Below, piece by piece: positions 11,625 to 30,914 of a stretch of DNA of 38,748 bases. The notes under the pieces were generated by a model. It was not told the origin of the DNA. It saw nothing but the letters and a program-made list of their open reading frames with translations, and did not search any database. The stretch is from Serratia marcescens (GTDB lineage Bacteria > Pseudomonadota > Gammaproteobacteria > Enterobacterales > Enterobacteriaceae). The DNA is taken from contig JADMXW010000033.1 of assembly GCA_015548865.1 (NCBI GenBank), forward strand, positions 1-38,748, in the 5' to 3' direction. The position numbers and the translations under genes were made by a program. Position 1 is the first letter of the stretch. Every line of letters begins with the position of its first letter.

Positions 11625-11662
11625 AACCAAGCAGAGGCAATAGCTTCTAACTTGAGTATGAT

Positions 11663-11696
11663 AAAACGGCGAGTGTGTAACACTGGCCGTTTTTTT
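11663..11696 (+). terminator. Intrinsic terminator of xanP
   Basis: The outer stem AAAACGGC/GCCGTTTT encloses an inner AGTGT/ACACT hairpin and is followed by a run of T. It lies about 40 bp after the xanP stop. Confidence 0.9.
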
Positions 11697-11785
11697 ATTG
11701 TCTGTAACAGCGGTTAGGTATTGAGACGCGGGAAGAATTGCGGCATAACACAGGTACTCACGATGACAAGGCATGGACTGATACG

Positions 11786-13480: not shown

Positions 13481-13492
13481 TGGTCGTAACGG

Positions 13493-14434: not shown

Positions 14435-14505
14435 TCCCACCCCCTCCTTCCGATTGGCTGTACTGAGCACAGGTGACAATGGGCGCGCAGACGCGCAAGG
14501 CATCA

Positions 14506-14943
14506 TCACACCTGAAGCCAGAAAGTGACTGGCCCGTCGTTAACCAACGCAACCTGCATATCTGCCGCAAAGCGACCGGTTTCTGTGTGTGTGCCTCGTT
14601 CGCGAGACTGAGCAACGAAATACTGATAAAGCCTGTCGGCCTCGGCGGGGTCTGCACCACGGGAAAAACTGGGACGCATGCCTTTTTGCGTATCTGCCGC
14701 CAACGTGAACTGCGATACAACCAACAGACTGCCCCCGGTTTGCTGCACGTTAAGATTCATCTTGCCATGATCATCGCTGAAGATACGATAACCGAGCACG
14801 CGCTCGCACAACCGTGCCGCTTTTCGTTCATCATCGCCTTGCTCGACGCCTAACAGCACCAACAAACCGCCCGCGATCTCCCCAACAAGGGTATTTTCCA
14901 CCGTCACACTGGCGCTGGTAACACGCTGAATTAACGCAATCAT
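14506..14943 (-). CDS. dtd: D-aminoacyl-tRNA deacylase
   Basis: 145 aa, the same length as E. coli Dtd. It carries the active-site segments [22 protein letters not shown] (containing SQFTL) and the C-terminal NDGPVTFWL (Gly-cisPro region). It hydrolyses D-aminoacyl-tRNA and glycyl-tRNA-Ala as proofreading. ATG at 14943 (MIALIQRV) is set by homology, with AGGAG about 11 nt upstream. It lies directly after yihX; the yihY gene that separates them in E. coli is absent. Confidence 0.96.
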
Positions 14944-15044
14944 AAACGACAATCACTCCTGAACCGCTGTTTTTATAATCAAAATACAACAAGAAATACC
15001 CACCGTTTTTATCACAGCTTATGTGGGTTAGCGAAGGTATTGTG

Positions 15045-15650
15045 CTAAGGGGAAAGAGGATGTTCGGCAAAAAACTGAGGCACCGTATCACGGTCAGTCA
15101 CCAAAATACTTTGGATCCCCAACGCCTGCGCCGCTGCAATATTTTGCTCATTATCATCGAAGAATATCGTTTGCTCAGGTGTCACCTGCTCTTGCGCCAG
15201 TACATACTGATAGATTCTCGCTTCTGGCTTACGCATCCCGATATCCTGCGACAGATAGAGACGATCGGCTGCAACAGCCACCTCAGGGAACAGGGCTGGC
15301 CAGTGAGCACAGTGCAGGCGATTGGTATTGGACAAAATAACGGCACGGTGCCCCTGCTGGCGCAATTGCTTCATCATATCCAGTATCTCAGGGCGTAACG
15401 CAACAAAAATCGCCTGCCAGCCTGCAGTAAACTGTTCATAGCTCAACAACATGCCCATTTCTTGACTCAGCCGAGCACCAAATTCTTCATCGCTGATCTC
15501 ACCCCGCTCATGCAATTCAAAGGCTTCATCCATCTTGAAGCGCTCTTTCAGCGTGGCGAGTGGCACACCGCTGAGATTGCTCCACACGCCCAACACGCGG
15601 TTGAAATCGATATCAATGACAACGTTACCTAAATCAAAGATATAAAGCAT
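15045..15650 (-). CDS. yihX: HAD-family alpha-D-glucose-1-phosphate phosphatase YihX
   Basis: 201 aa HAD phosphatase: DLGN motif I at residues 6-9 (variant of DxDx, nucleophile Asp6), SNTN motif II, KPEARIY motif III with the conserved Lys, and FFDDN motif IV. It matches E. coli YihX, which dephosphorylates glucose-1-phosphate. A strong GGAGG lies 5 nt before ATG. A weak inverted repeat (ACCCAC/GTGGGT, 14998-15028) may terminate the transcript before dtd. Confidence 0.95.
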   Translation of the reverse strand: MLYIFDLGNVVIDIDFNRVLGVWSNLSGVPLATLKERFKMDEAFELHERGEISDEEFGARLSQEMGMLLSYEQFTAGWQAIFVALRPEILDMMKQLRQQGHRAVILSNTNRLHCAHWPALFPEVAVAADRLYLSQDIGMRKPEARIYQYVLAQEQVTPEQTIFFDDNEQNIAAAQALGIQSILVTDRDTVPQFFAEHPLSP

Positions 15651-15792
15651 TTCGCCCTCCAGACGTCATGGTTGTTTTTCCACTGTAGCGGGAAACATGA
15701 CGGCTGAATAGGGAGGAACATAACTAAAACGTATACGAAATACTCAAGGTTGGCAGCAAAGGAAGCGGCGCTCCGCCTCTCGGGCAGGAAAA
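15651..15792. other. Intergenic, yihX to MmyB-like regulator
   Basis: 142 bp between two minus-strand genes, holding yihX upstream sequence. Only a weak GC-rich inverted repeat (near 15761-15780) is visible; I see no gene. Confidence 0.4.
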
Positions 15793-16608
15793 TCAGACCG
15801 ATAAAGCTTCTGCATCCCCTTCAAGTGGTTGATAAATAACCAACCGCAAACTGCGGTCTTCATCAAGCAAGAAAGTCGCATGCTCAAAGACAAGGGGAGG
15901 TCGTCCCTCAATGGAAAAACACCGCTGACCATGACCACAATGATGAACATCATGGCAACGCCAGAGCGCGGCAAACTGCGGCGATGCCTGTATTAATGCT
16001 TCAACGAGCGCTTTCACCTCATCATGCTCGGGTACGAGTGCAAAATCACGCCGAAAACTAGCGACAATAGCAGGTGCCTGGTGCGGCCAATCAATGAAGC
16101 GAGCAGCAAGCTCTGTATCAGTAAACAACATCCACAGCATATTGCGTGTCTGTGGTGATTGGGCACTAAAACCAAACAGTTTATCGGAAGCGTCGTTCCA
16201 TCCAAGCACATCCCAGTACAGATTAAGTACGTGTGCTGGGCGCGGATCAATACCATCCAGAAGGCGATGAAGAAATCCGGGCAACGTACGGGGGCGAGGT
16301 GAAGGTATAGGCAACGGATGCTGGCCCGTCAGTAAGAACAGATATTGACGTTGAGTCGCATCGAATTGTAGCACATCTGCAATCCGTTCGAGGACAGCGG
16401 ACGATACCTGGATATCGCGCCCCTGTTCAAGCCAGGTGTACCATGTGAGACCAACACCGGCGAGTACCGCAACTTCTTCACGCCTCAGCCCAGGAGTCCG
16501 TCGACGATTTCCTCCAGGCAATCCCAGCGCCTGTGGGATGAGGCTTTCGCGCCGACGTCGTAAGAAATCAGCAAGTTCTTTATTGGTGCGTTCGAGGCGT
16601 GAATCCAT
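15793..16608 (-). CDS. XRE-family regulator with MmyB-like ligand-binding domain
   Basis: 271 aa. An N-terminal helix-turn-helix (residues ~7-85) contains RRTPGLRREEVAVLAGVGLTWYTWLEQGRDI, typical of the MmyB-type subgroup. The C-terminal PAS-like ligand domain has the WDVLGWNDASDKLFG signature. Such regulators usually control an adjacent divergent gene in response to a small hydrophobic ligand. Here the divergent gene is an MFS exporter 125 bp away with an inverted repeat between them. GGGGAG precedes the ATG. The ligand is unknown. Confidence 0.85.
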   Translation of the reverse strand: MDSRLERTNKELADFLRRRRESLIPQALGLPGGNRRRTPGLRREEVAVLAGVGLTWYTWLEQGRDIQVSSAVLERIADVLQFDATQRQYLFLLTGQHPLPIPSPRPRTLPGFLHRLLDGIDPRPAHVLNLYWDVLGWNDASDKLFGFSAQSPQTRNMLWMLFTDTELAARFIDWPHQAPAIVASFRRDFALVPEHDEVKALVEALIQASPQFAALWRCHDVHHCGHGQRCFSIEGRPPLVFEHATFLLDEDRSLRLVIYQPLEGDAEALSV

Positions 16609-16657
16609 TGAGTGCTCCCCAAATGACCTCGCGATTGGCCATTGCCCTAAGTAATAG

Positions 16658-16679
16658 TGTAACTGGCTATATAGTAACA
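16658..16679. promoter_or_regulatory. Candidate operator between regulator and MFS gene
   Basis: Inverted repeat TGTAACT-N8-AGTAACA (6 of 7 pairs) lies 50 bp before the regulator start and 55 bp before the exporter start. This position suits control of both promoters by the XRE/MmyB-like protein. Confidence 0.45.
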
Positions 16680-16733
16680 GAATAAAAAACGGAGCAGAGT
16701 GAAGAAATTGTCATCAACTCAGGTCGTCATACC

Positions 16734-18194
16734 ATGTCTTGTTATGCTGAAATTCATCGCCCCCCTTGCTCGACTCCAGGGCTTTCCACCAAAGAGCTTA
16801 CCGTTTTATTCAGTGGCGCTTTCGCGGTGGTGTTCGACGTATTTGTCGTCAACCTGGCCATTCCGTCTCTGCAAATTGACCTGGGCGCCAACCTGGCCGA
16901 AAGTAGTCTGGTGGTTGCAGTATATGCACTTACCTTTGGGAGTTGCCTGATCATCGGAGGGCGTCTAGGCGATCGCTATGGACGCCAGCGTACATTTATC
17001 CTTGGTATGGTAGGTTTTGCATTCACTTCTCTCGGATGCGGTCTCGCTCCTACGCTGCCTTTTCTGGTTATCACTCGGTTATTACAGGGGATGTGTGCGG
17101 CGCTGTTATTCCCCCAAATCTACGCATTGTTACATGTGCTGTACGACGAATCTGGCCGCGCCCGCGCTTTTAGCATACTGGGTATGACTTTGGGTTTTGC
17201 AGCTATTACAGGCCAGTTACTTGGTGGGATGATGGTGTGGATTAACCTGTTCGGTCTTGGTTGGCGCCTCGTTTTTCTGGTAAACCTGCCGTTTGGTCTT
17301 GTTATCGCCCTATTGGCACGAACCGTGCCAGAATCACACGGCCCAGCAACCAGGCTGGATCTATTAGGTGCATTTCTCATCACCAGCAGTCTGAGCATGT
17401 TATTGGTTTCGTTATTAGAAGGACCAACTCAGGGATGGCCCACCTGGAGTATCGTTAGCCTCATAAGCTCCCCCTGCATTGGTATGCTGTTTATCATTTG
17501 GGAACATCATCTCAAACGCCGTGGCAACATCCCCTTGATTAATCTGGCTCTGTTCACCGAACGCCACTTCTCATTAGCATTGATCGCGGTACTATTGGTC
17601 TACTCGACGCCAGCCTCTCTGTTCCTGTGTTTCTCGATGACATTACAAAACGGACTGGGTGTAACACCGCTAATGGTGGGTACGTTACTCACCCCAATGA
17701 GCGTCGGCTTTATCCTGGCGTCTTTTGCGATGCCACGACTGCCCACGCATTTTGGCACGGGCACGATGATCTGTGGCTTGATGCTGTATACCGCAGGTTT
17801 CCTTTGGTTGGCCTGGGAAACACCGAACCTGAGTAGTGTGGCATTACCACACTTAAGTTATCTGGCGGGCATGGTTGCTTTCGGCTTTGGTCAGGGGCTT
17901 TCTGGGCCGCCTTTACTCAACCTCGCTATAGGCACCGTCGCCAAGACACACGCCGGAATGGCCAGTGGCATCATCTCTACAGCACAACAACTCGGCATGG
18001 CAATTGGCGTCGCTTCAGGTGGCATGCTCTTCACGGCAGCTCTGGCAGCCCCAGGCAGCACCTCACAGACTGAACATTATATGCAGGCACTGGCCATCAC
18101 ACTTTACGGGAACGCACTGCTCACGCTTATTGCAACGGCATTAATTGTCATTTTGCAGCGGCTAGCACGAAGTGAAAAAAGGCAGGGCGCCTGA
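16734..18194 (+). CDS. MFS drug-exporter-like transporter, DHA2 (14-helix) type
   Basis: 486 aa integral inner-membrane protein with about 14 predicted helices. The MFS motif A variant GGRLGDRYGRQR lies after helix 2, an acidic residue (FDVFVVNLAIP) sits in helix 1, and the motif C-like GFAAITGQLLGG lies in helix 5. This fits proton-driven exporters of the EmrB/QacA group. The substrate cannot be read from sequence. The likely regulator is the divergent MmyB-like protein. The start is uncertain: ATG at 16734 has only a weak AGG upstream and the first ~15 residues are atypical. The end of the gene contains the typA terminator. Confidence 0.85.
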   Translation: MSCYAEIHRPPCSTPGLSTKELTVLFSGAFAVVFDVFVVNLAIPSLQIDLGANLAESSLVVAVYALTFGSCLIIGGRLGDRYGRQRTFILGMVGFAFTSLGCGLAPTLPFLVITRLLQGMCAALLFPQIYALLHVLYDESGRARAFSILGMTLGFAAITGQLLGGMMVWINLFGLGWRLVFLVNLPFGLVIALLARTVPESHGPATRLDLLGAFLITSSLSMLLVSLLEGPTQGWPTWSIVSLISSPCIGMLFIIWEHHLKRRGNIPLINLALFTERHFSLALIAVLLVYSTPASLFLCFSMTLQNGLGVTPLMVGTLLTPMSVGFILASFAMPRLPTHFGTGTMICGLMLYTAGFLWLAWETPNLSSVALPHLSYLAGMVAFGFGQGLSGPPLLNLAIGTVAKTHAGMASGIISTAQQLGMAIGVASGGMLFTAALAAPGSTSQTEHYMQALAITLYGNALLTLIATALIVILQRLARSEKRQGA

Positions 18195-18204
18195 AAGCGC
18201 CCTG
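18175..18204 (-). terminator. typA terminator embedded in the MFS gene end
   Basis: A perfect 8-bp stem CAGGGCGC/GCGCCCTG with a 6-nt loop is followed on the minus strand by CC and six T. It spans the last codons and stop of the plus-strand transporter gene and lies 26 bp after the typA stop. Confidence 0.85.
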
Positions 18205-18229
18205 GAACGGTTTTGTAAAGAGCGGCAGA

Positions 18230-20053
18230 TTAGCCCTCTTTTGGCCCGCGGTTGGCGCGACGGCGATCGTTTTCAGTCAGGTGACGTTTACGCAAACGAA
18301 TAGACTGCGGAGTCACTTCAACCAATTCATCGTCATCGATAAATTCCAACGCTTGCTCCAGCGACATTTTCACGGCCGGAACCAGTACGGTCGCTTCATC
18401 AGTACCAGAAGCACGCATGTTGGTCAGTTTCTTACCCGTCAGGCAGTTGACCGTCAGGTCATTGGAGCGCGTGTGAATGCCAATAATCTGGCCTTCATAC
18501 ACTTCTGCACCATGGCCCAGGAACAACTTACCGCGTTCCTGCAGGCTGAACAGCGCATAGGCTACCGCTTTACCCTGACCGTTGGAGATCAGCACGCCGT
18601 TCTGACGCTGGCCAATATCACCTGGACGCACGTCGTCGTAATGACTAAAAGTGGAGTACAGCAGACCGGTACCCGACGTCATGGTCATAAAGTCGGTACG
18701 GAAACCGATTAAACCACGACTAGGAATGATGTAGTCCAGACGCACACGACCTTTGCCATCCGGGTTCATGTCACGCATTTCGCCTTTACGCAGGCCCAGC
18801 GCTTCCATGACGGAACCTTGATGCTGATCTTCGATATCAACGGTAACTTGTTCGAACGGTTCCTGACGGCGACCGTCGATTTCACGGAAAATAACTTTCG
18901 GACGAGATACCGCCAGTTCAAAACCTTCACGGCGCATGTTTTCGATCAGCACGGAGAGGTGCAGTTCACCACGGCCTGACACACGGAAAGTATCCGGGTC
19001 TTCAGTTTCTTCTACGCGCAGTGCCACGTTGTGCACCAGTTCTTTCTTCAGACGATCCAGAATCTGACGCGAAGTCACGAACTTGCCTTCTTTTCCGCAG
19101 AACGGCGAGGTGTTAACCCCGAAAGACATGGTTACGGTCGGCTCATCCACAGACAACGGCGGTAGTGCTTCCACGTTAGCTGTATCACAGATGGTATCGG
19201 AAATGTTCAGTTCACCCAAACCGGTGATAGCAATGATATCGCCTGCTTCTGCCACTTCAGATTCGATACGTTGCAAGCCCAAATGGCCCAACACCTGGCC
19301 AACTTTACCGTTACGGCGTTTACCTTCCGCATCGATAATCGTCACTTGCTGGTTCGGTTTAACGCGACCGCGTTTAATACGGCCAATACCGATAACCCCC
19401 ACGTAGCTGTTGTAGTCCAACTGGGAGATTTGCATTTGCAGCGGGCCGTCCAGATCGACGTTTGGCGCTTCAACGTGTTTGACGATCGCTTCGAACAGCG
19501 GCGTCATATCTTCCGCCATCTCTTCGTGATCCAAACCGGCGATACCCATCAACGCAGACGCGTAAACGATAGGGAAGTCCAGTTGCTCATCTGTCGCACC
19601 CAGGTTGACGAACAGATCGAACACCTGATCGACGACCCAGTCAGGACGTGCGCCCGGACGGTCAACTTTATTGATGACCACAATCGGTTTCAGGCCATAG
19701 GCAAAAGCTTTTTGGGTAACGAAACGGGTCTGGGGCATCGGGCCGTCCATTGCGTCTACCAGCAGCAGCACAGAGTCGACCATGGACATTACACGCTCCA
19801 CTTCACCACCGAAGTCGGCGTGTCCTGGGGTGTCAACGATATTGATACGGTAATCTCTCCAGTTAATGGCGGTGTTTTTCGCCAGAATGGTGATACCGCG
19901 TTCTTTTTCCAGATCGTTGGAATCCATGACGCGCTCAGTGGCATCATTTCGTTCACCCAATGTTCCAGATTGTTGTAGCAGCTTGTCAACCAGGGTTGTT
20001 TTCCCATGGTCAACGTGCGCAATAATAGCAATGTTACGCAAATTCTCGATCAC
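18230..20053 (-). CDS. typA: Ribosome-associated GTPase BipA/TypA
   Basis: 607 aa, identical in length to E. coli BipA. GTPase motifs: G1 AHVDHGKTT (residues 12-20), G2 RGITI, G3 [12 protein letters not shown]4 NKVD. EF-G-like domains and the BipA-specific C-terminus (ending [11 protein letters not shown]) follow. It acts on 50S assembly and stress or cold adaptation. It is transcribed divergently from glnA, as in E. coli. Confidence 0.97.
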
Positions 20054-20086
20054 AGCTTTGCCTCAGGCATTTAGAAATAGCGCGCT

Positions 20087-20114
20087 ATTGTACACGGATT
20101 AAGCGAGGGACCAA
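20087..20114 (-). promoter_or_regulatory. Probable sigma-70 promoter of typA
   Basis: On the minus strand, TTGGTC (-35) and TACAAT (-10) are separated by 16 bp. The start site would lie about 28 nt before the typA ATG. Confidence 0.5.
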
Positions 20115-20160
20115 ACAAGATCACACTCCTAAGCGATAAACAACCCAAGGGTGCTTGCTT

Positions 20161-20176
20161 TGTGATCCCTTTCACG
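20161..20176 (+). promoter_or_regulatory. CRP-like site upstream of glnA
   Basis: TGTGATCCCTTTCACG matches TGTGA-N6-TCACA at 9 of 10 fixed positions. E. coli glnA has a CRP-dependent upstream promoter (glnAp1), so this probably serves the same role. Confidence 0.6.
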
Positions 20177-20217
20177 GTGCAACGACGCAGAGAAAGTAAA
20201 CAAACGCACACAAACAG

Positions 20218-20271
20218 TGCACTATTTTGGTGATTATGAACCATAATGGTGCAACGAACGGTAATGGTGCA
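20218..20271 (+). promoter_or_regulatory. NtrC enhancer cluster of glnA
   Basis: Three elements resemble TGCACCA-N3-TGGTGCA. The best is at 20237-20253 (16 of 17 positions, only the third base differs). A weaker one is at 20218-20234 (TGCACTATTTTGGTG). A half site, TGGTGCA, is at 20265-20271, one 18-bp step from the best site. They lie roughly 75-130 bp before the sigma-54 promoter, as expected for phosphorylated NtrC. Confidence 0.85.
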
Positions 20272-20326
20272 GGCACTGCCTTCAACGAAAGCCCGAAAAC
20301 AACGCCTCGCAACGACGTGCGTAGAG

Positions 20327-20342
20327 TTGGCACGATTTTAGC
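20327..20342 (+). promoter_or_regulatory. Sigma-54 promoter of glnA (glnAp2-like)
   Basis: TTGGCACGATTTTAGC has the -24 GG (20329-20330) and -12 GC (20341-20342) with exactly 10 bp between. The predicted start near 20354 leaves a leader of about 70 nt. Confidence 0.88.
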
Positions 20343-20424
20343 TTAAACCTTATTACGGTAACAAACATCATTCCATAACGATATTCGTTCCACGACGATA
20401 AATGACAAATCGGGAGATCCAAGT

Positions 20425-21834
20425 ATGTCCGCAGAACATGTTTTGACGATGCTGAACGAGCACGAAGTTAAATTCGTCGACTTACGCTTTACCGATACCA
20501 AGGGTAAAGAGCAGCACGTCACCATTCCGGCTCACCAGGTTAGCGCTGACTTCTTCGAAGAAGGCAAAATGTTCGACGGCTCCTCTATTGGTGGCTGGAA
20601 AGGTATCAACGAATCCGACATGGTGCTGATGCCTGACGCGAGCACCGCGGTACTGGACCCGTTCTATGAAGACACAACGCTTATCATTCGTTGTGACATT
20701 CTGGAACCGAACACCATGCAAGGCTACGATCGCGACCCGCGCTCCATTGCGAAACGCGCTGAAGAGTACCTGCGCTCCACCGGTATCGCGGATACCGTTC
20801 TGTTCGGGCCAGAACCTGAATTCTTCCTGTTTGACGACGTTCGTTTCGGTAGCAATATCTCCGGTTCTCACGTTGCTATCGATGATATCGAAGGCGCATG
20901 GAACTCCAGCACCAAATATGAAGGCGGCAACAAAGGCCACCGTCCGGCAGTGAAAGGGGGTTACTTCCCCGTTCCGCCGGTTGATTCTTCACAGGACATT
21001 CGTTCTCAGATGTGTCAAGTGATGGAACAAATGGGTCTGGTTGTTGAAGCTCACCACCACGAAGTGGCAACTGCTGGCCAGAACGAAGTGGCAACCCGCT
21101 TCAATACCATGACCAAAAAAGCGGACGAAATTCAGATCTACAAATACGTTGTTCACAACGTAGCGCACGCTTACGGAAAAACCGCAACCTTTATGCCGAA
21201 ACCGATGTTCGGTGACAACGGCTCTGGTATGCACTGCCACATGTCCTTGTCCAAAGGCGGCACGAACAAATTCTCCGGCGACAAATACGCTGGCCTGTCT
21301 GAAGAAGCACTGTTCTACATCGGTGGCGTAATCAAACATGCTAAAGCGATTAACGCCCTGTCCAACCCGACCACCAACTCTTACAAGCGTCTGGTTCCGG
21401 GTTATGAAGCTCCGGTAATGTTGGCTTACTCCGCACGTAACCGTTCTGCATCTATTCGTATTCCGTTCGTATCCAGCCCGAAAGCAGCACGTATCGAAGT
21501 GCGCTTCCCGGACCCGGCTGCTAACCCGTACCTGTGCTTCGCAGCACTGCTGATGGCAGGTCTGGATGGTATCAAGAACAAGATCCACCCAGGCGATGCT
21601 ATGGACAAAAACCTGTACGATCTGCCGCCGGAAGAAGCGAATGAAATCCCACAGGTTGCAGGCTCTCTGGAAGAAGCACTGAACGCGCTGGACGCTGACC
21701 GTGCATTCCTGACGGCAGGCGGCGTGTTCACTGACGACGCTATCGACGCTTACATCGGTCTGCGCCGTGAAGAGAACGATCGCGTTCGCATGACGCCGCA
21801 CCCGGTTGAGTTCGAACTGTACTACAGCGTTTAA
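20425..21834 (+). CDS. glnA: Glutamine synthetase type I
   Basis: 469 aa as in E. coli. Visible landmarks are FDGSSIGGW, the metal-binding [10 protein letters not shown], the [13 protein letters not shown]/metal loop, [17 protein letters not shown], and the adenylylation tyrosine in [10 protein letters not shown] (near residue 398). It forms a dodecamer in the cytoplasm and assimilates ammonia into glutamine. Control is by the NtrC/sigma-54 promoter upstream and post-translational adenylylation. A strong terminator follows, with glnL beyond. Confidence 0.98.
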
Positions 21835-21973
21835 TAAGCGACTGTGTACCTATGATTTACCTCGGCGTGGTGGGCGTGCTGAACCCTGCCATGACCGAGT
21901 ATCAACAGAATTATAAGAAGTTTGTTTTTGTTGCCGTGGAAACTTTTCAGCCCATCTTCGGATGGGCTTTTTT
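21835..21973 (+). ncRNA. glnA 3' UTR, possible GlnZ-like small RNA
   Basis: 139 nt from the glnA stop to its terminator with no open frame of note. In E. coli the glnA 3' UTR is processed to the small RNA GlnZ. Position and terminator fit an equivalent here, but I cannot verify sequence similarity or processing. Confidence 0.3.
21949..21973 (+). terminator. Intrinsic terminator of glnA
   Basis: AGCCCATC-TTCG-GATGGGCT followed by six T, with an extra-stable UUCG tetraloop. It separates glnA from glnLG, allowing partial read-through control. Confidence 0.95.
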
Positions 21974-22011
21974 CACCATCGGCCCTATTTCTTTATCATC
22001 AAAATTGGCCG

Positions 22012-22060
22012 TTGCGACGTAACATCCATCATCTACACTACAATGCACCGCTAGGGTGCA
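22012..22060 (+). promoter_or_regulatory. glnL promoter overlapped by NtrC site
   Basis: Probable -35 TTGCGA (22012-22017), 16-bp spacer, -10 TACACT (22034-22039). The start region is covered by the palindrome TGCACC-N5-GGTGCA (22044-22060), a near-perfect NtrC site. NtrC repression of glnLp is known in enterics; the arrangement here fits it. Confidence 0.75.
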
Positions 22061-22072
22061 GGAGTCTGCGTT

Positions 22073-23122
22073 ATGGCAACAGGCACGCTGCCCGATGCTG
22101 GGCAGATCCTCAATTCTTTGATCAATAGTATTTTATTGCTGGATAACGACCTGGCAATCCACTATTCCAATCCGGCTGCCCAGCAGTTGCTGGCGCAAAG
22201 TTCACGCAAATTGGCGGGAACACCGTTGCCGGATCTGCTCAGCTATTTTTCGCTGAATATTGAGCTGATGCGCGAAAGTCTCAACGCGGGTCAAGGATTT
22301 ACGGATAATGAAGTGACTATCGTTGTCGATGGCAGAGCGCACATTATGTCGCTCACCGCACAACGCATTCAAAACAGTTTTATCCTGTTGGAGATGGCGC
22401 CCATGGACAACCAGCGCCGCCTCAGCCAGGAGCAATTACAGCATTCCCAGCAGCAGGCAGCCCGTGATTTGGTGCGCGGTTTGGCGCATGAAATCAAGAA
22501 TCCGCTCGGTGGATTACGCGGCGCGGCACAACTGCTGGCCAAAGCGTTGCCCGATCCGGCGCTGACCGAATATACCAAGGTTATCATTGAGCAGGCCGAT
22601 CGTTTGCGTAATCTGGTGGACAGGCTACTAGGGCCGCAGCAGCCCGGTTTACACGTAACGCAAAGCATCCATCAAGTCGCTGAACGCGTATGTCAGTTGG
22701 TATCGCTGGAAAAACCAGACAACGTGACTCTGGTGAAAGATTACGATCCCAGCCTGCCAGAACTGACTCATGACCCAGACCAGATTGAACAAGTGCTGCT
22801 GAATATCACCCGCAATGCGCTGCAGGCGCTGGGTAAAGAAGGTGGCACCATTACGCTGCGCACACGTACCGCCTTTCAACTCACGCTGCACGGCGTGCGC
22901 TATCGTTTGGCGGCGCGTATTGATATTGAAGACGATGGCCCAGGTGTGCCTGCTCAACTGCAAGACACGCTGTTTTACCCCATGGTAAGCGGTCGCGAAG
23001 GGGGCACAGGCTTGGGATTATCTATCGCGCGTAGCCTGATAGATCAGCATTCGGGAAAAATTGAATTTAACAGTTGGCCAGGCCATACCGAATTCTCGGT
23101 TTACCTGCCTATTCGCCAGTGA
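22073..23122 (+). CDS. glnL: Nitrogen sensor kinase/phosphatase NtrB
   Basis: 349 aa as in E. coli. An N-terminal PAS domain (residues ~10-110) precedes the HisKA helix with His139 in [12 protein letters not shown]. The ATPase domain has an N box ([10 protein letters not shown]), G1 (DDGPGVP) and G2 (GGTGLGLS). It is cytoplasmic with no membrane segment. With PII it switches between phosphorylating and dephosphorylating NtrC. glnG begins 8 bp downstream. Confidence 0.97.
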
Positions 23123-23130
23123 GGTTCACG

Positions 23131-24543
23131 ATGCAACGAGGGATAGTCTGGATTGTCGATGACGATAGCTCCATCCGTTGGGTGCTAGAGCGCGCGCTCA
23201 CTGGGGCGGGGTTAACCTGTGCCACCTTTGATAACGGAAATCAGGCGCTGCACGCGCTTGCCACACAAACACCGGATGTCTTGCTTTCCGATATTCGCAT
23301 GCCGGGCATGGATGGCCTGGCACTGCTGCAACAAATAAAACAGCGTCACCCGATGCTGCCGGTAATCATCATGACTGCACATTCCGATCTGGATGCAGCG
23401 GTAAGCGCTTACCAACAGGGCGCTTTTGATTATCTGCCAAAACCGTTTGATATTGATGAAGCCGTTGCATTGGTTGAACGTGCGATCAGTCACTATCTGG
23501 AACAGCAACAGCCGGTCAGAGCGCAGCCGCTCAATGGCCCCACCACGGACATTATTGGTGAGGCTCCGGCCATGCAGGATGTGTTCCGCATTATAGGCCG
23601 ACTCTCCCGTTCATCCATCAGCGTGCTGATTAACGGAGAGTCAGGAACCGGTAAAGAATTGGTGGCGCATGCATTACACCGCCACAGCCCACGAGCCAAA
23701 GCGCCATTTATCGCATTAAATATGGCGGCCATCCCTAAGGATCTGATTGAATCAGAACTGTTTGGTCATGAAAAAGGGGCATTTACCGGCGCTAACCAGA
23801 TTCGCCAAGGCCGCTTTGAACAAGCCGATGGCGGTACCCTGTTTCTGGACGAAATCGGCGATATGCCGCTGGATGTACAAACGCGGCTGCTCCGCGTATT
23901 GGCTGACGGGCAGTTCTATCGCGTCGGTGGCTATGCCGCGGTGAAGGTGGATGTGCGTATTATTGCCGCTACCCACCAGAACCTGGAAATGCGGGTTCAG
24001 GAAGGCAAATTCCGTGAAGACCTGTTTCACCGCCTCAATGTGATTCGCGTCCATCTGCCTCCTTTGCGTGAACGGCGCGAAGATATTCCGCGGCTGGCGC
24101 GCTACTTCTTGCAGGCAACAGCCAAAGAGCTTGGGGTAGAACCGAAAAATCTGCATCCCGAAACAGAAACTGCGCTCACACGCTTGCCCTGGCCGGGTAA
24201 CGTGCGTCAGTTGGAGAACACCTGTCGCTGGCTGACCGTTATGGCCGCAGGGCAAGAGGTCCTGATTCAGGATCTTCCTCCGGAGCTGTTTGAAACTACT
24301 GCACCAGACGCTACGGTACACATGCTGCCAGACAGTTGGGCGACTCTGTTAGCACAATGGGCCGATCGCGCACTGCGTTCCGGTCATCAAAACCTGCTTT
24401 CAGAAGCACAGCCAGAAATGGAAAGAACGCTGCTCACTACCGCGTTACGTCATACGCAAGGCCATAAGCAAGAGGCAGCTCGCCTGTTGGGATGGGGACG
24501 TAACACCCTGACGCGCAAGCTCAAAGAGCTGGGAATGGAATAA
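23131..24543 (+). CDS. glnG: Nitrogen response regulator NtrC
   Basis: 470 aa. The receiver domain has Asp10-12 and phospho-acceptor Asp54 ([12 protein letters not shown]). The central AAA+ sigma-54 activation domain has Walker A GESGTGKE, the sigma-54-contacting GAFTGA, and Walker [14 protein letters not shown]-terminal Fis-type helix-turn-helix follows ([21 protein letters not shown]). An in-frame opening at 23074 lies within glnL; ATG at 23131 with GAGG upstream matches the family. It activates glnA through the sites at 20218-20271. Confidence 0.97.
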
Positions 24544-25322: not shown

Positions 25323-25455
25323 ATTTAACCGACACGCCACCGGGCTGATGTCTATATCACAATAACATCCCCCATCATCATCGATGATGACGCTGTTTTA
25401 ACATGAAAATGCCCGTTAATTCAGACTGATGACAACGTTACTTTACCTCGTCATT

Positions 25456-25589
25456 CTCGGCAAAAGCCGAGGATCTCTGCCAGAAAAAACGCGTGTAATC
25501 TGCAAGAGATTCCCGCCCTCGCGGGAAAGACGGTGGTAGTAGGACAGTTGTCAGCAACCTCAAACGCCCCGTTAACATCGGGGCGTTTT
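25456..25589 (+). ncRNA. Candidate structured small RNA downstream of yshB
   Basis: Three hairpins follow one another without an open frame: CTCGGC-AAAA-GCCGAG (25456-25471), TTCCCGC-CCTC-GCGGGAA (25510-25527), and the terminator at 25562-25589. The series could be a free-standing small RNA or the 3' UTR of yshB. No promoter was identified and GGA motifs are not in loops, so a CsrA sponge is not supported. Confidence 0.35.
25562..25589 (+). terminator. Intrinsic terminator downstream of yshB
   Basis: AAACGCCCCG (25562-25571) pairs with CGGGGCGTTT (25579-25588) around a 7-nt loop; the T tract runs to 25589. Confidence 0.9.
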
Positions 25590-25613
25590 CATGTTTTACA
25601 TTGACTCAATGTA

Positions 25614-25700
25614 TATACCCTCAGGGGAGCCTACTCAGGTAAGTGACTGGGATGAGCGAGGAAAACCAACGTACCTGCAACATGAAGGATAACGGCTATA
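25614..25700. repeat. Degraded copy of a dispersed enterobacterial intergenic repeat
   Basis: The sequence starts TATACCC and ends GGCTATA. Its centre (CTACTCAGGTAAGTGACTGG, then GATGAGCGAGG) matches, from memory, a family of roughly 120-bp intergenic repeats common in Yersinia, Serratia and Pectobacterium. Part of the left half appears deleted. The family name cannot be confirmed without a search. Confidence 0.45.
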
Positions 25701-25782
25701 TCGACAATATCGCTAATCAGGAAAGGGGGGAACGTTTATTTTTCCGGTGGCTTATTTACGATATACTCTCGATGCTGCGGCA

Positions 25783-26112
25783 AAATCCGTAGCCGGAATT
25801 GGCGTTCCGAAATTTACCACGTTGCCTAAAAGACACTGATTTACTTAGTGTCTTTTATTAGGCGATGCCTGTGTGCACCTGTCAATGGTGGCTCAGGCGG
25901 GGGCTCCTCAAGGAGCGCCGGGCTACGTGGTAACCGGTTACGCCAACCCCGTCTGGGCTACCACCACAGGATTGGCGTCTCAGGTGGTAGTGATGCCCTA
26001 CCTACCACGGAGATTATCTTATGGCAATTATCCTTCCCTTGTTACACCCATATGCTTTCACCACGCTACCTGCGGGGGTGCATCATGTATAACGCTACGC
26101 CCCTTACCGTAG
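25783..26112 (+). pseudogene. Ash-family (P4 satellite-like) protein remnant
   Basis: One frame reads KSVAGIGVPKFTTLPK, then two stops (TGA 25837, TAG 25846), then SMVAQAGAPQGAPGYVVTG and YANPVWATT, the hallmark run of Ash-family proteins of P4-like satellites (recognised by recall). It ends at 26112. The part after 25873 could be translated alone (79 codons). The two stops lie inside a perfect hairpin, so this may be an attenuated leader rather than simple decay. It overlaps the small gene at 26085 in another frame. Confidence 0.5.
25828..25856 (+). terminator. Perfect hairpin inside the Ash-like leader
   Basis: AAAAGACACT (25828-25837) pairs with AGTGTCTTTT (25847-25856) around a 9-nt loop. 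With A4 on one side and T4 on the other, it could terminate weakly in either direction, in the manner of the short immunity-region terminators of P4-like satellites. Confidence 0.55.
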
Positions 26113-26252
26113 AAGAATACGTCGATCATTGCCGTGCACTTTCCTATGCCATCATCGAGTTGGATGATCCTCAAGCCAAAGAACTGCTGAACTTTATTCT
26201 GTGGGAACGGTTGAATCAGTTGAATGAGGCACTGCAAACAGAGGAAGCGTGA
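26085..26252 (+). CDS. Small P4-satellite-type hypothetical protein
   Basis: 55 aa: YNATPLTVEEYVDHCRAL, then AYAI-like YAIIELDDPQAKELLNFILWERLNQLNEAL-type helix. It is acidic, helical and soluble, similar to short proteins that follow ash/Icd genes in enterobacterial satellite prophages (recall, unverified). A GGGGG-rich ribosome site (TGCGGGGGTGCATC) precedes ATG. The frame is open upstream to 25848, but that part reads as the alternate frame of the Ash-like sequence. No function is known. Confidence 0.55.
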   Translation: MYNATPLTVEEYVDHCRALSYAIIELDDPQAKELLNFILWERLNQLNEALQTEEA

Positions 26253-26333
26253 ATGGTCGAGAAAGGCATTGGAAATAAAAAGCTAGTAGCGATACGTTGA
26301 CGTTCTGACATTTACTGCGTTAACGACATAATC

Positions 26334-26362
26334 GGTAATTGCCGCCAATATCGGCAATTACC
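26334..26362 (-). terminator. Hairpin beside the decayed hemN 3' end copy
   Basis: A perfect 11-bp stem GGTAATTGCCG/CGGCAATTACC with a 7-nt loop. It occupies the same position relative to the relic hemN tail as the hairpin at 28745-28768 does to the intact hemN stop, so it appears to be the duplicated hemN terminator. There is no T-run. Confidence 0.5.
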
Positions 26363-26372
26363 ATCACAAACA

Positions 26373-26456
26373 CCATCAAATCACCCGCGAGAACTTGTGT
26401 CTATACCTTGGCACGCAGATAGCTGTCAAAACACATGCAGATATTGTGAATTAACA
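26373..26456 (-). repeat. Decayed direct repeat of the hemN 3' end
   Basis: 84 bases align in the same orientation with 28778-28863. Outside a 16/18-nt gapped stretch, 63 of 68 positions are identical. Translated on the minus strand it gives NICMCFDSYLRAK, identical to the HemN tail, then a premature stop and frame loss. It marks the far side of the expI/expR island. Confidence 0.85.
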
Positions 26457-26853
26457 CATCATTACGCACCTGTCGAACATATCAACATGCCCCTTCATAC
26501 ATAAGCGTATTTTTTATTACCTTAATACTATCTTACCTCTTGTATATATTATGAATATAGACATTACGCAATTTAACCATTCCTTATTCAGGCCAAACTC
26601 TCTGACAGTCCAAATGTAAAGATTATAAAAAACCAAATAAAATTACTTTCTTAGATAAAAACTCGAAGCAAAAGGGGACAAATGAATCTGAGGATATGAA
26701 ATTCTATTATTTAGATTTTATTTATTCTTCGTGATTATTTGAGTGGGAATAAAACACTAAAAAAACTATTATTGCTCAGTCCCGGCATGCTACTGGAAAG
26801 CTTCACTGATGTTACCGAATTTAATCATTCTACACATTAATACAGGTGACATT
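26457..26853. other. AT-rich upstream region of expI
   Basis: About 400 bp of low-GC sequence without an open frame. It presumably holds the expI promoter, but several AT-rich hexamer pairs are possible and none stands out. A lux half-site (ACCTGT at 26468) lacks a matching partner. Confidence 0.4.
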
Positions 26854-27495
26854 ATGTTTAATATTTACAGTGTTAATTACTTATCTCTAAGCAATGAAAA
26901 ATCAGAAGATTTTTTCATTTTACGAAAAAATATATTTAAAGATCGTCTACAATGGAATGTTAATTGCTCTAATGGAAAAGAATTTGATGAATTTGATAAT
27001 GAAAAAACAGATTATATATTTGGAGTTAAAAATGGAGTTATTATTTGTGGTACAAGAATTATAGATACTAAATACCATAACATGCTGAATGATACGTTTT
27101 CATCTTTCTTTAAAAAAATAAATTTACCTGAAGGAAAATTCATTGAGTCAACCCGTTTTTTTGTGGATAAAGATAGGGTTAGCTCACTCCTTGGTAACAA
27201 ATATCCCGTTACTCTGGCCTTATTTCTTTCATTGATTAACTATGCCCAGCGTCACCATTATGACGGTATATTGGCTGTTGCAAGTCACCCGATGATGAGC
27301 ATCATCCGAAAATCAGGCTGGAATGTTACAGTACTGGAAACCGGGGTTTCCGAGAAAGATGAACCTGTCTATCTGCTACTGGGTCATATTGATCTCAAGA
27401 GTCAGAAAGAATTAAAAGATAGGATATTACGTAGGGACAACATTCAGTCTGAAAATGTACTGAACGACTGGCCACTGTCGTTTATCGCTGAGTAA
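26854..27495 (+). CDS. expI: Acyl-homoserine lactone synthase, LuxI/ExpI family
   Basis: 213 aa. All core LuxI-family residues are present: Arg24, Phe28, Trp34 (LRKNIFKDRLQW), Asp45 and Asp48 (EFDEFD), Arg68 (CGTR), and Glu98/Arg101 (IESTRFFVDKDR). The C-terminus WPLSF is typical of the ExpI/CarI/YenI group. It makes N-acyl-HSL signal from S-adenosylmethionine and acyl-ACP. The usual IYTIVSHPM block reads ILAVASHPM, so the Thr linked to 3-oxo selectivity is Ala141. ATG at 26854 with CAGGTGA upstream fits the family better than the opening at 26809. The gene is strikingly AT-rich compared with flanking core genes. Confidence 0.92.
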   Translation: MFNIYSVNYLSLSNEKSEDFFILRKNIFKDRLQWNVNCSNGKEFDEFDNEKTDYIFGVKNGVIICGTRIIDTKYHNMLNDTFSSFFKKINLPEGKFIESTRFFVDKDRVSSLLGNKYPVTLALFLSLINYAQRHHYDGILAVASHPMMSIIRKSGWNVTVLETGVSEKDEPVYLLLGHIDLKSQKELKDRILRRDNIQSENVLNDWPLSFIAE

Positions 27496-27498
27496 TCA

Positions 27499-28221
27499 TT
27501 ACGTAATCGGTTGAATCAGGCGAAGCTCCACGCCAAGACGCACAGCATGCCGGGCATTGGCGACTCCCATCTTTTTAACAATATTCAGCATATGGAACTT
27601 AACAGTACGCACTTTTATACCAAGAATCATCCCTGTTTCTTGATATGTTTTACCGACACTCGTCCAATAGAGAATTTCATTTTCTCTTTTGGTGAGTAGG
27701 TTAGTTTTTCTCACGTCTTCTGGTTTTTTTTCAGAAAATGATGTCAACGTCAAGTATGTTTCGTGTACTGATGCTAATAATATTGAGATGTCCCCTTTAT
27801 TCTGTAAAAGCGTTTGCATTATCTCTACCTTACGTTCAGCTGGGACAATAAAAGATAGAGTCACAAGATTATTGTTATAGTCATGCAATACAAACGTATA
27901 GCCATTAACCACTTCATATTCACTGGCTTGATTGAAAAGTTCAGCAAAGTCATACCCTGAATGGGTCATCAGTTTTTCATTCCAGGGAAAAGGGGTTAAC
28001 CTTTTCAATGCAGTGATTACCACAGGATCAGTATACTGAAGCCCATTCTCTCGGTAATGTCTGACCCATTCTTCTGGATAGTTTGTTACACCAAAGATGC
28101 ATGACATATCTTTTTTGGATAAGACCACGTATGCCCATGTGAATGCCTCGAGGGTGTTTAACGTCGCTTCAAGCTGATTTCTTATAATTTCTTCAACATT
28201 GCATTCATTTTTCATTAACAT
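27499..28221 (-). CDS. expR: Quorum-sensing regulator, LuxR/ExpR family
   Basis: 240 aa. The N-terminal autoinducer-binding domain keeps the Trp/Tyr/Asp-Pro/Trp constellation (TWAYVVLS, WVRHYRENGLQYTDP, FPW). The C-terminal LuxR-type helix-turn-helix is LTKRENEILYWTSVGKTYQETGMILGI with KFHMLNIVKKMGV. It converges with expI, the stops separated by 3 bp, the layout of ExpI/ExpR, YenI/YenR and EsaI/EsaR. Proteins of that subgroup often bind DNA without signal and release on AHL binding; whether this one does is inference. AAGGA lies 7 nt before ATG. A probable -10 is TATATT (28260-28265, minus strand). Confidence 0.93.
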   Translation of the reverse strand: MLMKNECNVEEIIRNQLEATLNTLEAFTWAYVVLSKKDMSCIFGVTNYPEEWVRHYRENGLQYTDPVVITALKRLTPFPWNEKLMTHSGYDFAELFNQASEYEVVNGYTFVLHDYNNNLVTLSFIVPAERKVEIMQTLLQNKGDISILLASVHETYLTLTSFSEKKPEDVRKTNLLTKRENEILYWTSVGKTYQETGMILGIKVRTVKFHMLNIVKKMGVANARHAVRLGVELRLIQPIT

Positions 28222-28330
28222 TACAACATCCTTGTGAGTACGAATATCATGTCTTCAATAATATATCGCCTATGGGAATGAATGACCGCCTTCGTATCAG
28301 TTTGGGGACCGGTGTAAGGTACAGCAAGTG

Positions 28331-28350
28331 AACTGTACTTATGGTCAGAT
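28331..28350 (+). promoter_or_regulatory. lux-box-like ExpR binding site
   Basis: The 20-mer has CTG-N10-CAG (28333-28348), the core of LuxR-type boxes, and matches about 15 of 20 positions of the lux-box consensus. It overlaps a second perfect palindrome, GTACAG-N8-CTGTAC (28319-28338). It lies 110 bp upstream of the expR start codon, and its centre is about 41 bp before the predicted start of the rightward transcript. Confidence 0.6.
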
Positions 28351-28368
28351 TATTTTTCCAGACATTTG

Positions 28369-28374
28369 TATTAT
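28369..28374 (+). promoter_or_regulatory. -10 box of rightward promoter beside the lux box
   Basis: TATTAT (5 of 6 matches to TATAAT), start site near 28381. The lux-box-like element would overlap the -35 region, the usual placement for LuxR-type activation. Confidence 0.45.
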
Positions 28375-28380
28375 TCTATG

Positions 28381-28709
28381 AAAAGTAATGAGGCACTTAT
28401 TACTGTACGTGACTAAAAACCCAGAACACAAAGGGTTAGAAAGACCGATAGCTAAACACCAGGGAATACACACCCTCAGTATAAATAGTAAATTGAGGGT
28501 GTTCGGACTTCAGTGTCGTGACTAACGCATCATAACATTGCTATTACTCTGCCTATAAGAGTAAATCGTTAGCCTCCCCTCCTACAACATCAGATCAAAT
28601 CGTTGATCCTTACACTGCTAAATCCGTTAAATAAGGTGAAACAAGCGTAAGAACCGCAAGATGTACGATGGTGAGTTGTACGCAGAATTAAAAGCGCACT
28701 GCTTTTTTT
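28381..28709 (+). ncRNA. Candidate quorum-controlled small RNA divergent from expR
   Basis: About 330 nt without a plausible gene. Hairpins follow in series: ACACCCTCA/TGAGGGTGT (28470-28502), TTACTC/GAGTAA (28544-28564), GATCAA-ATCG-TTGATC (28593-28608), then an intrinsic terminator. The only frames are 12-16 codons. The layout (lux box, divergent from the luxR-type gene) matches the EsaR-regulated esaS RNA next to esaR in Pantoea stewartii. Promoter and terminator positions are predictions. Confidence 0.45.
28690..28709 (+). terminator. Intrinsic terminator of candidate small RNA
   Basis: AAAAGC-GCACT-GCTTTT followed by three more T (seven T in total), reading rightward toward the end of hemN. 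Confidence 0.65.
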
Positions 28710-28744
28710 GATATTTCACAACTCTGTATATGGCAGAACCCGTC

Positions 28745-28768
28745 ATAGCCGCCAACGTAGGCAGCTAT
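28745..28768 (-). terminator. Hairpin downstream of hemN
   Basis: ATAGC.GCC pairs with GGC.GCTAT (one C/A mismatch) with a 6-nt loop, 12 bp after the hemN stop. It has no T-run. Its counterpart lies beside the relic copy at 26334-26362. Confidence 0.5.
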
Positions 28769-28777
28769 CAGCACACG

Positions 28778-28863
28778 CCATCAAATCACTCGCGAGAACT
28801 GTTGCGTCCTTGCTTTTGCACGCAAATAGCTGTCAAAGCACATGCAGATATTGCGAATCAACA
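28778..28863 (-). repeat. Intact copy of the hemN 3'-end direct repeat
   Basis: These 86 bases include the last 27 codons and stop of hemN. They match 26373-26456 in the same orientation. The copy in the functional gene is intact while the other has drifted. Confidence 0.85.
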
Positions 28864-30154
28864 AGCGGCCTTTCGGTGTTACCACGATCCCCGTAGGGTG
28901 CAATTCAGCCAGACCATCCTGCACCAGCGGTGCCAGCAGGCGCAAATCTTCCGCGAAATAGAGACGGCAATCGATGCCGTAATCCGCTTCAATCGCCGCG
29001 TAGTCCAGACGGAAATTACAGATGAGACTCTTGATCACATCGCGGCGAATACAGTCATCGTGCGTCAAGCGCAGGCCGCGCCACAGTGCATTGCCCTGCT
29101 CACTCACCTTCTCGTAGTAGGTTTTCAGCACCTTTTCATTTTGCGCGTAGCTGTCGCCAATCATGCTGATCGCCGACACGCCCATGCCCAGCAGGTCGGT
29201 CTCACCCTGCGTGGTGTAGCCCTGAAAGTTACGGTGCAATTTACCGGCACGCTGCGCCAGCGCCAGCTCATCATCTGGGCGAGCAAAATGATCCATACCG
29301 ATAAACTGATAGCCCGATTGGGTGAGCGTGGCAATGGTTTGGCGCAGAATCTCTAGCTTTTGCGCTGGGCTCGGCAAATCCGCATCTTTAATTTTACGCT
29401 GGGCAGCAAACAGCGTCGGCAAATGGGCGTAGTTGAACACGCTGAGACGATGAGGGCTCAACTCAGCAACGCGTTGCAGGGTAAAAGCAAAGCTCTCCGG
29501 CGTCTGTTTCGGCAAACCATAGATAAGGTCGATATTGGTAGAAGTGAAGCCAAGCGACTTGGCGCGTTCAATCAGCGCAAAGATAAATGCCTCATCCTGC
29601 TCACGGTTCACCAGGCGTTGCACTTCCTTGTTGAAATCCTGCACGCCCATGCTCAGGCGATTAAACCCTTCCGCACGCAGGTGATCGAGGATATCCAGCT
29701 CGATTTCACGCGGATCGACCTCCAGCGAGGTTTCCACCTCATCCGCGAACTGGAAATTCTCGCGCAACAACGCCATTAACCGGCTGATTTGATCTTTGTT
29801 AAGATAGGTAGGCGTGCCGCCTCCCCAGTGCAGTTGCGTGACAATGCGTCCGGCAAACAGCGGCGCGCGCTGGCGAATCTCCACGGCCAGCACATCAAGG
29901 TATTCTTCTGCTTTGTGCTGCTGGCGTGTCACCAGCTTGTTGCAACCGCAGAAATAGCACAGACGATGACAAAATGGGATATGGACGTAAAGCGACAGCG
30001 GCCGCTGCGGATAACGCGCTATCGCCTGACGGAATGCCACATCGTCATATTGTTCGTTAAACTCCAGCGCCGTGGGATAAGAGGTGTAACGCGGCCCGGA
30101 GTAGTTGTATTTTTGAATTAGGGCTAAATCCCAATCGACGTGTTGTTCTTGCAT
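28781..30154 (-). CDS. hemN: Oxygen-independent coproporphyrinogen III oxidase
   Basis: 457 aa as in E. coli. Radical-SAM enzyme with the 4Fe-4S motif HIPFCHRLCYFCGCNK (CxxxCxxC) near residue 60, and the following WGGGTPTYL and GVQDFNKEVQ segments. It makes protoporphyrinogen IX without oxygen. ATG at 30154 (MQEQHVDW) has a strong AAGGAG 8 nt upstream. It is the third gene of an operon-like run yihI, small membrane protein, hemN. Its 3' end is the site of the direct repeat. Confidence 0.97.
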   Translation of the reverse strand: MQEQHVDWDLALIQKYNYSGPRYTSYPTALEFNEQYDDVAFRQAIARYPQRPLSLYVHIPFCHRLCYFCGCNKLVTRQQHKAEEYLDVLAVEIRQRAPLFAGRIVTQLHWGGGTPTYLNKDQISRLMALLRENFQFADEVETSLEVDPREIELDILDHLRAEGFNRLSMGVQDFNKEVQRLVNREQDEAFIFALIERAKSLGFTSTNIDLIYGLPKQTPESFAFTLQRVAELSPHRLSVFNYAHLPTLFAAQRKIKDADLPSPAQKLEILRQTIATLTQSGYQFIGMDHFARPDDELALAQRAGKLHRNFQGYTTQGETDLLGMGVSAISMIGDSYAQNEKVLKTYYEKVSEQGNALWRGLRLTHDDCIRRDVIKSLICNFRLDYAAIEADYGIDCRLYFAEDLRLLAPLVQDGLAELHPTGIVVTPKGRLLIRNICMCFDSYLRAKARTQQFSRVI

Positions 30155-30158
30155 GCTG

Positions 30159-30335
30159 TTACTCCTTCCGCTTGTATTTCCCAACAGCGCTTTTCAACAA
30201 CAGCTTACGCTGCCCTGTCCCGAACACCGATCGCTGTAGTCGCGTTTTACGCCGGGAAAGCAGCCACAGTTTAACCAACAGACACAGCAGATAACAGAAA
30301 ACCAACACCAAGATGAGACTCAGTAGCCCTTTCAT
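30159..30335 (-). CDS. Single-span small membrane protein between yihI and hemN
   Basis: 58 aa: MKGLLSLILVLVFCYLLCLL gives one transmembrane helix, followed by a strongly basic cytoplasm-like tail (LLSRRKTRLQRS to KYKRKE). The ATG is 3 bp after the yihI stop and the stop is 4 bp before the hemN ATG. The end of the gene carries the hemN Shine-Dalgarno. No own ribosome site is obvious, so translational coupling to yihI is likely. It may be a shortened relative of the DUF2489 proteins found between yihI and hemN in Vibrio and Shewanella (unverified). Function unknown. Confidence 0.7.
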   Translation of the reverse strand: MKGLLSLILVLVFCYLLCLLVKLWLLSRRKTRLQRSVFGTGQRKLLLKSAVGKYKRKE

Positions 30336-30338
30336 CTA

Positions 30339-30914
30339 TCAGAATACGTCTTTCGGGTTATTACGTTTGAGGAGCTGCATCATGTCTTCCTGCTGCGTTT
30401 CCTCTTCGTCATCGTCCATTTCGATTCCCAGCTCATCCATCAAGGCATTGATACGATCGAGTGTACTATCTACCCATTTCTGCTCATTTTTGCTCAACGT
30501 CTCACCGTTATCCAGACGTTCCAGCAGTGCATCGAGGCGATCATCATTCTCCAGCAGAGCCAGCTCCTGCTCTGGGGTCAAGCGCGTTTCGACTACTGTT
30601 TCTGCTTTAGGCTTAGTATCTTGTGTGTGATCACGCTGCGGTTTAGTGGTCTGTGACTGTTCGTCACTTACCGTCAGCGCGACAGGTTTTTTGCTACCGA
30701 TGCGCGGGTCGCTTTTTTTCCCCTGACTGGATTGCTTTGCAACTTCCACTGCTGGGTTTGCACGGCTGCCCGCCGCACGACCACTGTGTTTTTTCTGACG
30801 TTTACGTTCCCGACCTTCACTATTAAGCTCGTCGCGAGTTTTTCTCTTGGCTTTAGATGTCGACGCCTTCGCGCCAGGGGCTTTGGTGCCCGAATTTTTC
30901 ACCGGCTGTTTCAT
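30339..30914 (-). CDS. yihI: Der GTPase-activating protein YihI
   Basis: 191 aa (E. coli 169). The basic, low-complexity N-terminus ([23 protein letters not shown]-like stretch) and acidic C-terminus ([11 protein letters not shown]) with [24 protein letters not shown] in between are typical of YihI. YihI stimulates the GTPase Der and so modulates 50S assembly. ATG at 30914 (MKQPVKNSG) is chosen by homology over an upstream in-frame opening. The N-terminal region is longer than in E. coli. It is divergent from engB, itself a ribosome-assembly GTPase. Confidence 0.92.

Follow-up and report, generated by a model that had tools for sequence, protein, structure and literature searches.

How a quorum-sensing gene pair came to lie between two copies of the end of a housekeeping gene is the question raised by the stretch of DNA analysed here (the window, 38,748 nucleotides). 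The window corresponds to contig C26 of G000, a genome of 5.39 Mb assembled in 64 contigs. This genome is a relative of Symbiopectobacterium, an insect- and plant-associated genus whose members pass between plants, insects, and nematodes. A first-pass annotation made from the window alone had placed the locus in a Pectobacteriaceae context and had read expI and expR as an island left at the hemN 3′ end either by integration or by segmental duplication. Its taxonomic framing had to be corrected, the arrangement being specific to Symbiopectobacterium among the genomes compared. Our genus set comprised five genomes, namely the window genome, G001 (Candidatus Symbiopectobacterium endolongispinus), G002, G003, and G004, whose hemN genes are 96–98% identical to one another; among the matches seen in other genera, hemN identity did not exceed 85%.

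The expI/expR pair is enclosed between both copies of the hemN end, which have the same orientation and are identical at 106 of 132 aligned positions (26323–26456 against 28730–28863). The outer copy, hereafter the relic, comprises the 83 bases that end hemN, including its stop codon, followed by about 51 bases of downstream sequence with the hairpin; it also matches the hemN end of G004 (86%). When the outer stretch was aligned locally against 28745–30200, the repeat scored 68, compared with no more than 16 in 500 mononucleotide shuffles, a difference that rules out chance similarity; an assembly artefact is ruled out by the same structure in G002, an independent single-contig genome, and the two together keep next to no probability. 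The repeat thus lies where the first-pass annotation had put it, with two amendments. The identity it gave (63 of 68) was too high, because the interval it named, 26373–26456, yields 73 of 84 and one 2-base gap, and the homology extends beyond that interval, out to about 26323. Its other anatomical readings stood: the outer copy retains the codons NICMCFDSYLRAK, followed by V and a premature stop (AKV*), a hairpin lies downstream of each copy, and the enclosed 2.3 kb is AT-rich (36% G+C over 26457–28733, against 54% in glnLG and hemN).

On the inner side hemN, whose stop codon occupies 28781–28783 on the minus strand, runs uninterrupted and intact through the repeat, so that this border falls within continuous homology. 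On the outer side there is an abrupt join at 26456/26457, where the relic starts inside hemN and adjoins a stub unlike hemN, while the relic itself continues outward through its hairpin; no clear microhomology was noticed at this join. As in elements residing at the 3′ end of a gene, direct repeats of the gene end flank the locus and the inner copy restores the gene.

Table 1. Features of the hemN–expI/expR locus in window coordinates.
Feature	Position	Strand	Evidence or remark
isrK (25774–25858) and C4 antisense RNA (25881–25968), phage-type immunity remnant	25774–25968	+	Rfam 56.3 and 76.4 bits; outside relic
Small ORF belonging to the isrK/C4 phage-type module	26085–26252	+	8 copies in window genome
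Outer (relic) hemN 3′ end and downstream hairpin	26323–26456	-	Premature TAG; 2-base deletion relative to hemN
Hairpin of outer copy	26334–26362	-	10-base arms GGTAATTGCC/GGCAATTACC; z -3.56
46-base stub, from relic to expI-side sequence common with relic-less genomes	26457–26502	.	Window and G002 only
expI, LuxI-type acyl-homoserine-lactone synthase	26854–27495	+	Pfam Autoind_synth 1.2e-63
expR, LuxR-type regulator, convergent with expI	27499–28221	-	Pfam Autoind_bind 3.4e-23, GerE 5.9e-14
expR–hemN intergenic part of block	28222–28729	.	43 informative sites grouping window and G002 in 28222–28733
Inner copy, intact: end of hemN with the hairpin behind it (28745–28768)	28730–28863	-	Sequence repeat, folding
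hemN, oxygen-independent coproporphyrinogen III oxidase, intact	28781–30154	-	

We surveyed the locus outside the genus in 80 named loci of 590 candidates and in 16 of 87 non-genus hemN places; 95 of the surveyed loci lay outside the genus, and 93 of these (91 distinct by sequence) had enough downstream sequence to be informative. The empty arrangement prevails there: glnG begins 35–758 bp after the hemN stop in 91 of the 93, expI or expR stands beside hemN in none, and none has a second hemN end, the best self-repeat score being 20 (L020), whereas the window scores 54 and G002 scores 51. This is what the first-pass annotation had predicted, namely a single hemN end in genomes lacking expI/expR at this place, and no relative without the pair was found to carry the relic among the compared loci. 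The two exceptions in spacing are L102, with neither glnG within 6.5 kb of hemN nor expI/expR, and L012 (Pectobacterium zantedeschiae), where the interval after hemN (9366–17362) is occupied by genes for a two-component system, transport, and metabolism (names judged from sequence). The content of this interval in L012 implies that the hemN–glnG place accepts other insertions; as a parallel case for its enlarged interval, L012 was rejected, there being one hemN end in its whole genome. A relic search of 149 family genomes gave matches in 47, with a second match to the coding end only in the window genome and G002 and a second match of 36–41 bases, to the hairpin part, in G038 and G044; the search was a weak one, 102 genomes returning no match even to their own hemN. 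None of the genomes compared showed the exact state expected before the insertion.

Within the genus, expI/expR stand beside hemN in all five genomes, and the relic is present in two, the window genome and G002 (about 8938–9047 of locus L117, with the same structure as in the window). In G001, G003, and G004 the only match to the hemN end is hemN itself, and sequence like that at window position 26313 passes straight into sequence like that at about 26507–26510; the 46-base stub, like the relic, is found in the window genome and G002 alone. The island reading of the first-pass annotation agrees with the empty arrangement outside the genus but had not foreseen three of five genus genomes with the pair and no outer copy. 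In G001 stops or frame breaks interrupt both expI and expR (L116, 3097–4421), in line with the eroding genome of this species. All four relatives also have a set of about 5 kb between glnG and expI, encoding PLD-like, ExbB, TonB-receptor, TonB, and ExbD proteins (about 3460–8875 in L117 and about 3432–8966 in L119); the corresponding part of the window, 25412–26252, has no such set and holds the isrK–C4–small-ORF remnant in its place.

The presence of the scar in two genomes of the genus is accompanied by a conflict between the block and its surroundings. In the flanking DNA the window stands apart from G001–G004, which are close to one another, and over 14001–22000 only 15 informative sites group the window with G002, compared with 36 that group it with G004. 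Over 26510–28780, 154 sites group the window with G002 and a single one with G004. Likewise, of 337 sites in 26503–28780 that discriminate between the window and G004, G002 agrees with the window at 264, compared with only 82 of 396 in 18000–24543; the end of hemN in G002 has therefore moved together with the island. Synonymous divergence gave the same picture. Between the window and G002, dS was 0.21 for expI and 0.24 for expR, compared with 0.33 for glnL, 0.62 for glnG, 0.33 for hemN, 0.91 for yihI, 0.51 for engB, and 0.50 for polA; between G002 and G004 it was 0.43 and 0.46 for the pair, and 0.16, 0.26, 0.31, 0.69, 0.22, and 0.31 for glnL, glnG, hemN, yihI, engB, and polA, respectively. Since the divergence of the G002 pair from the window is well below that of most flanking genes, these distances indicate that the block and its scar have been exchanged between the lineage of the window and G002, which are different species. 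The window's side is the probable source of the block, scar included, that G002 now carries.

The left border of the exchange in G002 lies near window position 26287 and the right one within 28790–29290, not pinned to the repeat. A border exactly at the repeat edge (28811–28880) was considered and dropped, since the switch inside hemN cannot be pinned to that edge, the best split being 29180/29201, with 28810/28825 only 0.93 log units worse. The end and the body of hemN nevertheless do not share one history in all relatives, as the G002 end shows by having travelled with the island, and this much of the earlier expectation held; there was no sign of a hemN end from a distant donor, both copies being of Symbiopectobacterium type. 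Against G001, G003, and G004, the window pair has a dS of 0.44–0.58, close to that of glnG, engB, and polA (0.46–0.57) though higher than that of glnL and hemN (0.29–0.43), and for this reason expI/expR were probably already present in the ancestor of the genus. A separate exchange between the window and G004 was seen in yihI (window 30339–30914; dS 0.33, compared with 0.69–0.91 between the window and the other three), and ordinary homologous recombination therefore works at this region. At the locus itself, a block made up of signalling genes and a gene end has been swapped between species, while the surrounding chromosome largely has not.

We then compared the relics with the current hemN ends. 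In an unrooted tree of seven sequences (156 columns), the two relics grouped together and apart from all five hemN ends (ultrafast bootstrap 91); the hemN ends of the window and G002 formed a pair (99), as did those of G001 and G003 (96), with G004 joining the latter (79). The root cannot be placed because the downstream part has no outgroup. The coding part of the relic is nearest to the hemN ends of the window and G002 (the G002 relic matches its own hemN at 59 of 60 positions), whereas its downstream part is nearest to G004 (53–55 of 70) and G003 (49–54 of 70), compared with 36–48 of 68 for hemN of the window and G002. The two parts tell different stories, and the relic therefore calls for gene conversion or a mosaic origin. 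In the relic hairpins the 10-base arms are perfect and are the same in the window and G002, while the loop has diverged, which hints that hairpin function has been retained; against shuffles they folded better (z-scores of -3.56 and -3.31) than the hemN hairpins of the window, G002, G003, and G004 (-1.92, -0.43, -1.88, and -1.60).

Taken together, these data lead us to favour, with about even confidence, a reading in which the outer copy is the scar of an expI/expR insertion anchored at hemN, most likely made by homologous or one-sided recombination. DNA carrying expI and expR next to a hemN terminus would have entered the hemN–glnG interval of a Symbiopectobacterium ancestor, its entry anchored by homology at the hemN 3′ end; the incoming terminus would have completed hemN, and the resident terminus with its hairpin would have been pushed 2.4 kb outward, where it is now decaying. 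The route would most likely be of RecA type, either one crossover with a fragment that had circularised or homology-facilitated illegitimate recombination, in which case hemN would be the homologous side and the stub/relic border the non-homologous join. Block and scar would later have moved between the window's lineage and G002. The order within the relic, an abrupt start in hemN and then the 3′ hairpin, is the one expected for a displaced resident end, although a circular-fragment crossover, a one-sided insertion, or an integrase acting at the hemN end would produce it as well. Several findings stand against the favoured reading: the three genus genomes with the pair and without the relic, in which either the relic was lost or the pair arrived without one; the differing affinities of the two parts of the relic; the absence of clear microhomology at the non-homologous join and of a genome in the pre-insertion state among those compared; and the phage-type remnant 60 bases outside the relic, which leaves room for an integrase. 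The relic-less genomes could instead reflect a local duplication: with expI/expR already in place beside hemN, template switching, or a tandem duplication and subsequent deletion, would have put a second hemN end upstream of expI in the window's lineage, from which G002 would later have received it. The backbone-like divergence of the pair between the window and the three relic-less genomes would suit such a history, as would the affinity of the coding part of the relic to the window and G002 hemN ends; we nonetheless regard it as doubtful, since it requires two events, leaves the stub, absent from the relic-less form, unexplained, and does not predict relics that stand apart from the five current hemN ends in the (short and unrooted) end tree. 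When the scar arose is a matter distinct from how, and was rated separately from the homology, integrase, and duplication readings: with a chance only slightly short of even, the relic was present in the genus ancestor, relic and stub were lost by one deletion of about 190 bases in the ancestor of G001–G004, and G002 regained the block from the window's lineage. A single deletion joining 26313 to about 26510 does yield the relic-less form, and the pair's dS between the window and G001, G003, and G004 is close to that of flanking genes; however, no microhomology was noticed at the deletion join, and a simple outgroup relic would not be expected to have a downstream part that resembles G004 more than it does window hemN.

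The pattern of a restored gene end and a displaced outer copy is usually read as the work of an integrase. Prophage e14 of E. coli K-12, for example, is integrated into the 3′ end of a protein gene, icd, whose terminus it restores, and the hemN locus resembles it in having an intact inner end and a decayed outer end in the same orientation. A tyrosine-integrase element might in the same way have recognised the hemN 3′ end and restored its terminus, the integrase being later lost or supplied in trans, possibly with tandem accretion by the phage-type remnant. The anatomy fits attL and attR at a gene 3′ end, the relic hairpin arms are perfect over 10 bases, and isrK, C4, and the small ORF lie directly outside the relic; 8 of 10 other loci with the small ORF also carry isrK and C4, and in G003 (contig C59) an integrase fragment is found some 200 bases away from the small ORF. 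Yet, unlike e14, the hemN locus has neither an integrase nor phage genes between the repeats, the remnant lying outside them, and the other loci analysed gave no instance of an integrase site at the hemN end. As the first-pass annotation had remarked, no integrase is visible: none of the genome's 19 matches to PF00589 (E ≤ 0.001) falls in the window contig, and there is no tyrosine integrase in the hemN–glnG interval of G001–G004. Nor would the interval of at most 758 bp in 91 of the 93 loci outside the genus offer room for an integrative element; L012 has no evident integrase in its 8 kb and a single hemN end, and the hemN-end motif occurred in no viral contig (a pattern scan run without a positive control). 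Four records labelled as phage with a hemN end were rejected as attP evidence, two being bacterial contigs and two short host fragments (yihI–hemN or hemN–glnG), and a literature search found no paper on hemN as an integration site. Site-specific integration, which the first-pass annotation had offered as one source of the pattern, has thus gained no positive support beyond the repeat itself and the nearby phage-type remnant, and we consider it unlikely. It is very improbable, in our estimate, that the hemN terminus is a repeatedly used site at which an integrase-less expI/expR cassette moves as a unit between Symbiopectobacterium species, mobilised in trans by the integrase of an isrK/C4 element. 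The eight copies of the small ORF in the window genome lie in contigs C10, C15, C33, C64, C1 (two), and C55 and at 26085–26252 of the window, and six of the seven copies elsewhere accompany C4 and isrK, which suggests that this genome holds many decayed phage-type elements.

Homology at a housekeeping gene would explain the pattern more economically than an integrase, and recombination of this kind has been invoked before. In two reports on T6SS effector-immunity arrays and Rhs loci (PMC5361080, PMC3240628), displaced 3′ ends are proposed to result from homology-facilitated illegitimate recombination. As described there, a homologous gene anchors the insert at one of its sides, the resident 3′ end is shifted behind the newcomer, and blocks are later swapped by homologous recombination without specific sites. 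The hemN locus resembles these systems in its homologous anchor and in the later exchange of the block, and its relic may likewise be a resident end displaced by the insert. It departs from the systems in those descriptions in its anchor, housekeeping hemN with a duplicated terminus, and in its cargo, a luxI/luxR pair, and the one-sided mechanism is here our proposal. The locus would accordingly be a further example of a scar type already known, one that records how a quorum-sensing pair entered this genus and then changed hands within it. The scar is real and well delimited and the exchange between species is documented; the proposed route of entry is the tentative part of this history.

The cargo is a LuxI/LuxR pair by its Pfam domains, an autoinducer synthase adjacent to a regulator with autoinducer-binding and GerE domains, whose acyl-homoserine-lactone activity is predicted, and these domains match those of ExpI/ExpR pairs of the Pectobacterium, Trabulsiella, and Serratia type. 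Among the genomes compared, the closest pairs outside the genus reach 78% identity (G084, Trabulsiella odontotermitis) and then 75–76%, with 72–75% at the DNA level over most of the pair; unlike the pair studied here, they have no hemN nearby and no spanning direct repeat (nine larger loci, drawn from 51 genomes with a match). In searches of mobile DNA, the island had no megablast match among plasmids, the relic matched a plasmid once only, at hemN, the 13 plasmid records with a match to ExpI (E ≤ 1e-40) did not reach 60% identity, and four pattern matches to ExpI in viral contigs were not confirmed. A literature search on Symbiopectobacterium and quorum sensing found no paper on this locus among those listed. 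The window genome also encodes a second LuxI homologue, 42% identical to ExpI, at 294155–294775 of contig C33, about 9 kb from the small-ORF copy at position 285301 of that contig.
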